Shown here: piece after piece, positions 14,084 through 17,435 of the stretch
Numbering within the stretch: position 1 is the stretch's first letter
Layout of the letters: every line of letters starts with the position of its first letter
NCBI RefSeq assembly: GCF_000233435.1
Contig: NC_016146.1
Span: 159,701 to 223,700 of the forward strand
DNA: 64,000 nucleotides
Direction of reading: 5' to 3'
From: Blattabacterium sp. (Mastotermes darwiniensis) str. MADAR
GTDB taxonomy: Bacteria; Bacteroidota; Bacteroidia; Flavobacteriales; Blattabacteriaceae
Program-made: the position numbers and the translations under genes
Notes under the pieces: generated by a model
Database searches by the model: none
What the model was told of the DNA's origin: nothing
Seen by the model: only the letters and a program-made list of their open reading frames with translations

Positions 14084-15043
14084 ATGAAAGTGACGGATCA
14101 TATAGCTAAAGCAAAAAAAAGTTTATTTTCTTTTGAAATATTACCTCCTTTAAGAGGACATGATATAAAAGATATTTTTTCTACTTTAGATCCTTTAATG
14201 GAATTTAATCCTCCTTTTATTGATGTCACGTATCATCGTGAAGAATTTTTTTATGTAGAGAAAGAAAATGGACTCTTACAAAGAAGGATTATTTCACGAC
14301 GTCCAGGAACTGTAGGAATCTGTGCAGCTATTATGAATAAATATGGGATAGATGCTGTTCCACATCTTATTTGTGGTGGTTTTAATAAACAGATGACGGA
14401 AAATGCTTTAATAGATCTAAATTTTTTAGGGATAAATAATGTTTTAGTTCTTAGAGGAGATCCACTTAAATCAGAAAAGAGTTTTTTTGCAAAAAAAGAC
14501 GGACACAAATATGCAGTGGAATTAGTAGAACAAGTTCAAAATTTGAACATAGGAAAGTATCTTGATAAAACTTTTGAAAGAAAAGACTCTCCATTATTTG
14601 ATTTTTGTATTGGTATAGCTGGATATCCGGAAAAACATTTAGAAGCTCCAAATATGGAAAGCGATTTATTCTTTTTGAAGAAAAAGGTTGAAGCTGGAGC
14701 AAACTATATTGTTACTCAAATGTTTTTCGACAATAAAAAATACTTTTCTTTTGTAAAAAAATGTAGATCAAAAGGTATTTTTGTACCTATAATACCTGGA
14801 ATAAAACCTATTTCTTCTAAAAGACAGTTGAATAGTCTTCCTTCTCGTTTCTCTTTAAATATTCCTAATGAATTAGTGAAAGAAATTGAAAAAGCTAAGG
14901 ATAAAAAAATAATTTCTCATATCGGAATAGAATGGGCTATACAGCAATCTAAGGAGTTAAAAAATTCTGGAGTGGAAGTAATCCATTATTACACTATGGA
15001 CAAACCAGAAAATATTTATAAAATAGTTCAAGCCGTTTATTAA
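14084..15043 (+). CDS. metF: methylenetetrahydrofolate reductase
   Basis: FAD-dependent TIM-barrel enzyme that reduces 5,10-methylene-THF to 5-methyl-THF for methionine formation. The start is ATG at 14084 (319 residues); an upstream in-frame TTG at 14057 would overlap serS and adds residues unlike the family. The catalytic glutamate is in FSFEILPPLRG near the N-terminus. DVTYHRE, LVLRGDPL, GIAGYPEKHLEAPN and ANYIVTQMFFDN are typical. It lies ten bases after serS. Its stop overlaps the convergent pdhB stop by four bases. Confidence 0.94.
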   Translation: MKVTDHIAKAKKSLFSFEILPPLRGHDIKDIFSTLDPLMEFNPPFIDVTYHREEFFYVEKENGLLQRRIISRRPGTVGICAAIMNKYGIDAVPHLICGGFNKQMTENALIDLNFLGINNVLVLRGDPLKSEKSFFAKKDGHKYAVELVEQVQNLNIGKYLDKTFERKDSPLFDFCIGIAGYPEKHLEAPNMESDLFFLKKKVEAGANYIVTQMFFDNKKYFSFVKKCRSKGIFVPIIPGIKPISSKRQLNSLPSRFSLNIPNELVKEIEKAKDKKIISHIGIEWAIQQSKELKNSGVEVIHYYTMDKPENIYKIVQAVY

Positions 15044-16020
15044 ATTATATAAAGAGTTTCTCTGATGGATTTTATTACTTTTTCTTCATTAGGTAACCAG
15101 GATTCAATCAAGTTAGAAGCATAAGGGGCTGGAGTATCCAATAAAGTAATTCTATTGATAGGGGCATCAAGATAATCAAATGCTTTTTTTTGTACAATAT
15201 ACGAAACTTCAGAAGCTATTGAAGAAAAAGGCCATGATTCCTCTAATATTACCAAACGATTGGTCTTTCTTACAGAAGAAAGTATGGATTCGTAATCCAA
15301 TGGACGAATAGTGCGAATATCTATTACTTCTACGCTAATGTTTTCTTTATCTAATTTTTTTGCTATCCTTAAAGCAAGTTTCATAATTTTACCAAAAGAA
15401 ACCAAACTAATATCCGTCCCTTTTTTTTTTATATCCGCTTTTCCAATGGGAATAATATATTCCTCTTTTGGAATCATCATCTTATCCCCATACATTTGTT
15501 CAGATTCCATAAAGATTACGGGATTATTATCTCGTATAGCAGATTTTAACAAACCTTTAGCATCATATGGATTACATGGAATTATGACTTTTAATCCAGG
15601 ACAACTAGCATACCAACTTTCAAAAGATTGAGAGTGGGTTGCTCCTAATTGTCCAGAAAATCCAGTAGGACCTCGAAAAACAATAGGAATGTCCCATTGT
15701 CCTCCACTCATATAACGTATTTTTGCAGCATTATTGATAATTTGATCCATTGCTAATAAAGAAAAATTAAATGTCATAAATTCAATAATAGGTCGACAAC
15801 CGTTCATAGCAGACCCTACACCTATACCTGAAAAACCAAGTTCTGATATTGGGGTGTCAATGACTCTCTTTGGTCCAAATTCTTCTAACATACCTTTAGA
15901 AGCTTTGTAAGCTCCATTATATTGAGCTACTTCTTCTCCCATAAGATATACGGTTTTATCTCTTCTCATTTCTTCACTCATAGCTTCCGCTATAACTTCA
16001 CGAAAAGTTATTTCTTTCAT
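15040..16020 (-). CDS. pdhB: pyruvate dehydrogenase E1 component, beta subunit
   Basis: Transketolase-like beta subunit of the thiamine-dependent E1 of pyruvate dehydrogenase, making acetyl-CoA with E2 and E3. The protein has 326 residues. Family features are the N-terminal TFREVIAEAMSEEM, YLMGEEVAQYNGAYK, IDTPISELGFSGIGVGSA, and FRGPTGFSGQLGATHSQ with the catalytic histidine; the C-terminal transketolase domain starts at about residue 190. The alpha subunit is not in the window. The start codon lies only ten bases after the T-tract of a strong terminator, so its promoter is unclear. Confidence 0.92.
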   Translation of the reverse strand: MKEITFREVIAEAMSEEMRRDKTVYLMGEEVAQYNGAYKASKGMLEEFGPKRVIDTPISELGFSGIGVGSAMNGCRPIIEFMTFNFSLLAMDQIINNAAKIRYMSGGQWDIPIVFRGPTGFSGQLGATHSQSFESWYASCPGLKVIIPCNPYDAKGLLKSAIRDNNPVIFMESEQMYGDKMMIPKEEYIIPIGKADIKKKGTDISLVSFGKIMKLALRIAKKLDKENISVEVIDIRTIRPLDYESILSSVRKTNRLVILEESWPFSSIASEVSYIVQKKAFDYLDAPINRITLLDTPAPYASNLIESWLPNEEKVIKSIRETLYII

Positions 16021-16029
16021 GATCGGATC

Positions 16030-16073
16030 AAAAAAAAAAAAACAACGGAAAAGTGAATCACTTTCCCGTTGTT
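16030..16073 (-). terminator. strong intrinsic terminator of the lipoprotein gene
   Basis: On the minus strand a 15-base-pair stem (arms 16059-16073 and 16041-16055, one mismatch, three-base loop at 16056-16058) is followed by 13 T (16042-16030). It begins nine bases after the lipoprotein stop. It is the clearest intrinsic terminator in the window. Its T-tract ends ten bases before the pdhB start codon on the same strand. Confidence 0.9.
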
Positions 16074-16081
16074 TGGAATAA

Positions 16082-16681
16082 TTAATTATTTGTTTTTGTT
16101 GTTTGTTCGTTATTGTTGTTAGTAGATTTATTTTTTTGTAATTCTTCCTGCATTTTTTGAAGAGCTAGTTTTTCATTTTTAGCCTCTGTTATAGAATCAA
16201 TTAATTTATTCAAAAAAATATTCTTTTCTTTAATAATTTTTAATTTTTCTTTGCCATATTTTTTATGATCTTCAAATTCTTTTTGAGCTTTAAATTGTTC
16301 TGCAGATCCGTAAGGTTTAGATTTCATTACCATTCTTCTTCTCTTTACTTCATCCATAATTTTTTTCTGAGCACTGACTAGATCATAATATTCATTGTAA
16401 TGGACTTCGCTTTCTTTCTCTAATCTTTCTATTCTTTCTCCTATTTCCTTTATTCTTTTAGATAAATATTCAGGACTAATATCCGCAGGAATTGGAGGAT
16501 TGAAAACGGGAGGATTAGAAGGTTTATCTGAAGGATTAGAACTAGCAAAAGAAGTATCTGTATTCGTTGTCGTAGGATCATTAGAAGAAAAAGTGAGTGC
16601 ATCATCATTACAGGATACAAAAAGAATTCCTAACGATAAACAAATAGTTGGAATTATAAATCTCATGGTAGAAACATTCAT
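16082..16681 (-). CDS. orphan lipoprotein with a proline/serine/threonine linker and a coiled coil
   Basis: I do not recognise a family. The 199-residue protein begins with a signal peptide whose hydrophobic core (about residues 8-22) ends at Cys24 in the context FVSC, a plausible lipobox. The residues after the cysteine are N-D-D, which resembles the acidic signal that sends lipoproteins to the cell surface in Bacteroidetes. Then come a Ser/Thr/Asn/Pro-rich linker (about 30-70), a charged, probably coiled-coil region (about 72-180), and an Asn/Thr-rich tail. Met6 is an alternative start. It stands alone, with its own gap upstream and a strong terminator downstream, which suggests a separately and perhaps highly expressed product. 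Confidence 0.8.
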   Translation of the reverse strand: MNVSTMRFIIPTICLSLGILFVSCNDDALTFSSNDPTTTNTDTSFASSNPSDKPSNPPVFNPPIPADISPEYLSKRIKEIGERIERLEKESEVHYNEYYDLVSAQKKIMDEVKRRRMVMKSKPYGSAEQFKAQKEFEDHKKYGKEKLKIIKEKNIFLNKLIDSITEAKNEKLALQKMQEELQKNKSTNNNNEQTTKTNN

Positions 16682-16826: not shown

Positions 16827-17435
16827 ATGGAACAACTCATCAGATTAGCTATACGTGGAATATCCTTAAGTCAAATACAATCTGGGATATATGTTTTATT
16901 ACTGGAAGAAGAATCTGGAAGAATAAAACTTCCTATTATTATAGAAAGTTTACAAGCTCAATCTATTGCTTCCGCCATAAGCAAAAGAGATCCATCCAGA
17001 TCTTTTACACATGATTTATTTCTAACTTTTGCAAAAGTGGTTCATATTAGGTTAAAATCAGTTGTTATATATAAATTGGTTAATGGAATATTTTTTTCCT
17101 ATATTCTTTTTGAAGGAGAAAACAAAGAACATAAAATAGATTCAAAAACTTCCGATGCAGTTGCTTTAGCTGTACGATTTCAAGCTCCTATTTATACTAC
17201 AAAAGAAATTTTTGATAAGGCTGGAATTTATTTCGAAAATGGAGTTCCCAAAGAAAATGAAAATTCTGAAGTAGGAATAGAATCTCGTTCCAATTTTTTG
17301 AAGGAAAAAAGTCAAAAGGACTTAGAAAAGATGACAGAAAAAGATCTTAATGCTTTATTGAATCATGCAGTAGTAAATGAATGTTATGAACTTGCAGCAA
17401 AGATAAAAAAAGAACTGGATAGAAGAGAAGAATAA
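16827..17435 (+). CDS. bifunctional nuclease (DUF151) family protein with a C-terminal UVR-like motif
   Basis: The first 130 residues match the BFN/DUF151 family, for which DNase and RNase activity has been reported in other organisms. Typical are GIYVLLLEEESGRIKLPIII, ESLQAQSIASAI, and SKTSDAVALAVRFQAPIYTT. The tail (about residues 160-202) has the pattern EKMTEKDLNALLNHAVVNECY followed by AAKIKKELDRR, a UvrB/UvrC-like helical motif found in the Bacteroidetes version. The protein has 202 residues. Its cellular role is not established. Its stop directly abuts the stop of the convergent folA. Confidence 0.8.
   Translation: MEQLIRLAIRGISLSQIQSGIYVLLLEEESGRIKLPIIIESLQAQSIASAISKRDPSRSFTHDLFLTFAKVVHIRLKSVVIYKLVNGIFFSYILFEGENKEHKIDSKTSDAVALAVRFQAPIYTTKEIFDKAGIYFENGVPKENENSEVGIESRSNFLKEKSQKDLEKMTEKDLNALLNHAVVNECYELAAKIKKELDRREE

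Follow-up and report, generated by a model that had tools for sequence, protein, structure and literature searches.

The window analysed here is a stretch of 64,000 nucleotides from the genome of Blattabacterium sp. (Mastotermes darwiniensis) str. MADAR. Its minus strand contains a complete ORF for a lipoprotein of 199 aa, whose N-terminus reads MNVSTMRFIIPTICLSLGILFVS-CNDD. The locus comprises the following features:

15040-16020, minus: pdhB, downstream neighbour (named from reading the translation, not from a family search)
16040..16074, minus: intrinsic terminator between the lipoprotein gene and pdhB (stem plus T-run; stem core common to most strains)
16082..16681, minus: complete ORF of the 199-aa lipoprotein (ATG start; stop codon 16082-16084; syntenic orthologues)
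16613..16681, minus: type II signal peptide, residues 1-23, ending ...FVS (S23 invariant; median dN/dS about 0.2 over 18 strain pairs)
16610..16612, minus: putatively lipidated Cys24, position +1 (invariant in 41/41 copies; Lgt and LspA in 49/49 genomes)
16601..16609, minus: post-Cys N-D-D, +2 to +4, putative lipoprotein export signal (conservation; match to polar-D-D signals, PMC5080379)
16475..16600, minus: flexible Ser/Thr/Pro/Asn/Asp linker, residues 28-69 (low pLDDT; composition; median dN/dS about 0.65)
16319..16474, minus: helix 1 of a predicted hairpin, residues 70-121 (AlphaFold pLDDT 97-98)
16304..16318, minus: hairpin turn, residues 122-126, K-P-Y-G-S (AlphaFold; among the hairpin's best-conserved stretches)
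16088..16303, minus: helix 2 of the predicted hairpin, residues 127-198, including a variable tail (AlphaFold; conservation)
16827-17435, plus: bifunctional-nuclease-like gene, divergent upstream neighbour (named from reading the translation, not from a family search)

The ORF confirms the arrangement described in the first-pass annotation, a signal peptide up to Cys24 followed by N-D-D and a Ser/Thr/Pro linker. The gene stands alone, 61 nt from pdhB on the same strand and 145 nt from the divergent gene upstream. That it has its own gap and the strongest terminator of the window also holds, as the structure at 16074..16040 (-20.0 kcal/mol) is the most stable stem-plus-T-run and the runner-up reaches -14.1 kcal/mol. 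The stem core AACGGAAAAG...CTTTTCCGTT is found again downstream of most orthologues, and the lipoprotein gene thus probably forms its own transcription unit. This stem is kept between strains although the gene upstream of it evolves fast, and it may also serve other genes of the genome. A sigma-70-like promoter candidate 36-64 bases upstream of the gene scores 8.85 matches across strains versus 8.77 in shuffled sequence; as this is no better than chance sequence, no promoter is claimed.

Distribution and constraint

In line with the search for homologues suggested earlier, we read the interval that precedes pdhB in each of the 49 Blattabacterium genomes. In 41 of them it contains a syntenic ORF of the lipoprotein family, flanked on the other side by the bifunctional-nuclease gene. 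Three of these copies are diverged or eroding (G010, G029, and G063, with that of G029 truncated to 130 aa). The other 38 are good, well-aligned orthologues with the same layout, which indicates that the architecture is more than chance. No family ORF is present in this interval in the remaining eight genomes (G015, G017, G020, G021, G024, G026, G034, and G036). G021 still has a recognisable remnant, interrupted by stops (E 6e-12), and in G034, G036, and G026 only 68-135 bases of the interval are left. The plasmid matches of the MADAR genome are all Blattabacterium, and the pdhB tree groups this genome with three others, among them those that match plasmids of Cryptocercus strains. In this tree, the absences are scattered and amount to about three changes, at least two of them forced by well-supported branches. 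The neighbouring nuclease gene is likewise decayed or gone in several lineages that lack the lipoprotein gene.

Outside Blattabacterium, the orphan status assigned to the protein is upheld. No family member occurs in 19 other genomes of the bacterial family, and a search of 396 Flavobacteriales genomes (about 350 of them outside Blattabacterium) returned no credible homologue and only five weak matches in free-living organisms (E about 1e-4 to 1e-3). These align at the signal peptide and low-complexity linker only, read SCNDS, SCNDD, SCSND, SCNSD or SCSDE, and were rejected as unrelated lipoproteins. Pfam, NCBIfam, and PDB gave no profile match above the curated cut-offs and no recurrent match among 37 members. 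A single-protein scan of the genome contigs found no confirmed relative, and the family alignment has no stretch conserved enough for scanning. Many genomes also gave weak matches (E 0.007-0.2) at ~420-465 kb, which run across a stop codon in nearly all cases and were treated as low-complexity similarity.

The selection analysis proposed for the linker and the coiled coil used the Nei-Gojobori method on 18 independent strain pairs, with medians taken by hand; the values are rough, as some dS are high. The signal peptide as far as the Cys has a median dN/dS of 0.2, the linker one of 0.65, the hairpin one of 0.48, and pdhB one of about 0.07. Region by region, the protein thus is constrained, but only loosely outside the targeting region, where values of 0.5-0.65 might point to weak constraint and not to a demanding function; no claim of positive selection is made.

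These values, well above the 0.07 of the neighbouring enzyme, could also indicate a marginal relic that is kept by inertia, is being lost, and has no particular surface or symbiosis role. The absence of the gene from eight genomes, the stop-riddled remnant in G021, the erosion in G029 and G010, and the scatter of losses over the pdhB tree in at least 2-3 events would be in line with such a fate. We nevertheless regard it as quite improbable, because an unconstrained ORF of 600 bases would not be expected to remain open in 38 diverged genomes, because these retain an intact signal peptide, an invariant S-C, and a near-invariant N-D-(D/E), and because dN/dS of the hairpin lies below 1 in 17 of the 18 independent pairs. 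The first-pass annotation had taken retention in a reduced genome as a hint at a symbiosis role, to be doubted if the gene were absent or decayed in sister strains. Both are observed in part: 8 of 49 genomes lack the gene and 2-3 more copies are eroded or strongly diverged, against 38 good ones. Given these repeated losses, some partnerships do without the gene, and its retention is no proof of a universal symbiosis role. We propose that the lipoprotein is useful but dispensable and was lost from several lineages.

Post-cysteine motif and lipoprotein sorting

That the protein is a lipoprotein is supported. The S at -1 and the Cys are invariant in 41/41 copies, and both Lgt and LspA are encoded in 49/49 Blattabacterium genomes, which predicts lipidation. 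Behind the Cys, N occupies +2 in 38/41, D occupies +3 in 39/41, and D or E occupies +4 in 36/41 copies. Mean pairwise identity is 1.00 at +1, 0.86 at +2, and 0.90 at +3, position +4 is acidic in 88%, and conservation collapses from +5 onward (identity 0.1-0.26). Synonymous codons vary at the signal positions (GAT/GAC, GAA/GAG, AAT/AAC), so that the residues of the signal are kept and not the DNA. The net charge at +2 to +6 ranges from -1 to -3 in all copies except G010 and G029; these eroding copies lose the acids at +3/+4, G029 (CDTK) wholly and G010 (CNDK) partly. Purifying selection acts on the signal peptide, the Cys, and N-D-(D/E).

Export signals of surface lipoproteins in Bacteroidota, the phylum that also includes Blattabacterium, likewise follow a type II signal peptide. 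They read C-X-K-(D/E)2 in Capnocytophaga, SDDDD in Bacteroides fragilis, and SDDFE in Flavobacterium johnsoniae (Lauber et al., 2016; PMC5080379). The acids of the B. fragilis signal lie mostly at +3 and +4, whereas D/E is absent from +3 in the Capnocytophaga consensus; both SDDDD and SDDFE export a reporter in C. canimorsus, at lower efficiency (PMC5080379). The first-pass annotation had proposed an acidic export signal after the Cys. This proposal stands insofar as the motif is conserved, selected, and of the B. fragilis/F. johnsoniae type in position and chemistry, with a polar residue at +2, acids at +3/+4, and a negative net charge over +2 to +6. It does not extend to the Capnocytophaga type, K-(D/E)2 or Q-A-(D/E)2 with acids at +4/+5, as the Blattabacterium acids are at +3/+4 and K or Q is lacking. 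The Blattabacterium motif also has N at +2 where published signals have S, Q or K, and no published export signal reading exactly N-D-D was found. In a further difference from the published surface lipoproteins, no Sus-like partner gene lies beside that of the Blattabacterium protein, for which surface exposure is predicted from sequence. First drawn from a single sequence, the proposal of an export signal is now strengthened by a motif that is conserved and selected, with controls from inside the genus. We class the protein, from its sequence features, as a genus-restricted member of the Bacteroidota lipoproteins with export-like signals.

The encoded OmpA, YfiO/BamD-like, and OstA/LptA-like proteins imply an outer membrane, as does BamA, which occurs in 48/49 genomes; G017 has no match with the BamA model. 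The Pfam Omp85 model missed the BamA of MADAR (G000:C1:522402-524285), which the BamA model detects. This protein matches from model position 146 on only, as would be the case if the first POTRA domain had been lost or had diverged too far. Blattabacterium retains lipoproteins, Lgt, and LspA, but no LolA was found above the Pfam cut-off in the 49 Blattabacterium genomes, which puts classical Lol sorting in doubt; a lolD pseudogene has been described in two strains (Vicente et al.; PMC6039017). Absence of LolA and LolB would be no obstacle to surface export, because in F. johnsoniae the export of a signal-bearing reporter is independent of both (PMC11885536). As the flippase for surface lipoproteins, the BAM complex of Bacteroidota has been proposed on indirect evidence (PMC12611786).

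Alternatively, the protein could be a lipoprotein of the outer or inner membrane that faces the periplasm, with the acids acting as a Lol-type sorting signal and the hairpin serving as a periplasmic spacer, an envelope tether or a chaperone-like arm. In E. coli, lipoproteins with acidic residues near +2/+3 are held back in the inner membrane. A periplasmic spacer could plausibly take the form of a long helical hairpin on a linker too, and the lack of an exact N-D-D among published signals also fits this explanation. However, two Bacteroidota signals with a polar +2 and D at +3/+4 have been tested and both lead to surface export (PMC5080379), and the failure of LolA to reach the Pfam cut-off in 49/49 genomes makes sorting by a classical Lol system doubtful. 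Furthermore, the variable C-terminus has no conserved cell-wall-binding motif and no Pfam spacer or chaperone match. A periplasmic orientation therefore seems possible, though rather unlikely.

Linker, hairpin, and putative role

AlphaFold, run with 37 orthologues, models helices at residues 70-121 and 127-198 with pLDDT 97-99 over most of their length and a short turn between them, and pLDDT falls below 50 at residues 22-44. The confident prediction for the C-terminus is thus a hairpin of two antiparallel helices, carried by a disordered tether. The long, charged helical C-terminus noted earlier reappears as this hairpin of residues 70-198. The Asn/Thr tail described with it is found in the MADAR protein, but the tail is Lys/Glu-rich in most orthologues. 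Conservation within the hairpin is highest in the turn region and at residues 132-140. The linker varies from about 30 to 106 aa among strains and in sequence, but not in composition; S/T/P/N/D/E/G make up 73% of it versus 37% in the genome's ORFs. Glycosylation of the linker was considered and dropped, as the Bacteroidota O-glycosylation motif D-[ST]-[ALIVMT] is rare and absent in 31/41 members.

The top Foldseek matches are Vipp1/PspA (ESCRT-III-like) and other two-helix hairpins, with a best E-value of 0.036 at ~12% identity and none below 0.001. The antiparallel hairpin shared with Vipp1/PspA is a generic fold and no evidence of homology. Another helical lipoprotein of the outer membrane is the Braun-type lipoprotein Lpp. 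Unlike Lpp, the Blattabacterium protein has no conserved C-terminal Lys anchor and no Pfam match, and it is predicted to form a two-helix hairpin on a linker of 30-100 residues.

With moderate confidence, the motif and the structural model are best explained by a genus-specific outer-membrane lipoprotein, probably displayed on the surface, with a rigid hairpin on a flexible tether. Lgt and LspA would lipidate Cys24, and N-D-D/E would act as a Bacteroidota-type export signal that sends the protein to the outer membrane's outer leaflet. Kept in composition and free in sequence, the Ser/Thr/Pro linker would hold the hairpin off the membrane, and the hairpin might have a binding partner at the envelope or at the host interface, or form a structural coat. 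Judged from sequence, a host-facing role is plausible, and the lipoprotein may be one of the few proteins that the symbiont shows its host. To our knowledge, very little is known about the proteins that ancient insect endosymbionts display to their hosts. With its selected export-like signal, this genus-restricted lipoprotein of a ~600 kb genome is a concrete, antibody-ready candidate. If the proposed display is true, a genome of about 600 genes has kept the surface-lipoprotein pathway of Bacteroidota, and simple genome comparison would then leave fewer candidates for the components of this pathway.

Other Blattabacterium lipoproteins

Very few lipoproteins were seen in a 464 kb sample of the MADAR genome. 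Those compared do not carry N-D-(D/E), although they are few in number and known by sequence, not by location: a small disordered lipoprotein reads C-N-N-K, the YfiO/BamD-like lipoprotein CYVK, and a cytochrome lipoprotein CWLD. The C-N-N-K protein (L111:4806-5066, plus strand; G000:C1:448506-448766) is present in 49/49 genomes and, in 28 copies, is free of acidic residues from +2 to +4. With ~86 aa, almost entirely low-complexity N/T/E/K, this SCNNK lipoprotein is more universal than the 199-aa protein.

A second small lipoprotein family, annotated as 'hypothetical protein' (e.g. WP_110509455.1), reads C-[NHY]-D-[DE] in 7/7 aligned copies:

L163:264-557, plus: second-family lipoprotein
L164:286-585, plus: second-family lipoprotein
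L169:345-680, minus: second-family lipoprotein
L170:190-501, minus: second-family lipoprotein
L174:486-749, minus: second-family lipoprotein
L175:1477-1755, minus: second-family lipoprotein
L177:1471-1761, minus: second-family lipoprotein

In most carriers this family resides on the Blattabacterium plasmid, and in G035 and G064 on the main contig; it was not found in the MADAR genome. Like the chromosomal protein, its members show the post-Cys motif and a Ser/Thr/Pro linker followed by a charged helix, but they have only about 90-110 aa and one short helix in place of the long hairpin. A profile comparison of both families gives 96% probability and E 1.6e-9, scores of a kind that biased composition inflates. 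Paralogy is likely, with the similarity residing mostly in the signal peptide and the biased composition. Going further, this obligate intracellular mutualist might have given rise to a few host-facing lipoproteins of its own, the chromosomal hairpin and its short plasmid-borne relative. These would reach the surface by a minimal N-D-D/E signal and interact with the host vacuole or bacteriocyte, and they would evolve fast while the signal stays fixed. We offer this scenario as speculation and deem it unlikely as a whole. On the plasmids of related strains, the small lipoprotein gene lies beside dut. The MADAR plasmid (3088 bases) has no such gene and contains, at L165:23-440, short-period tandem repeats that are open in several frames.
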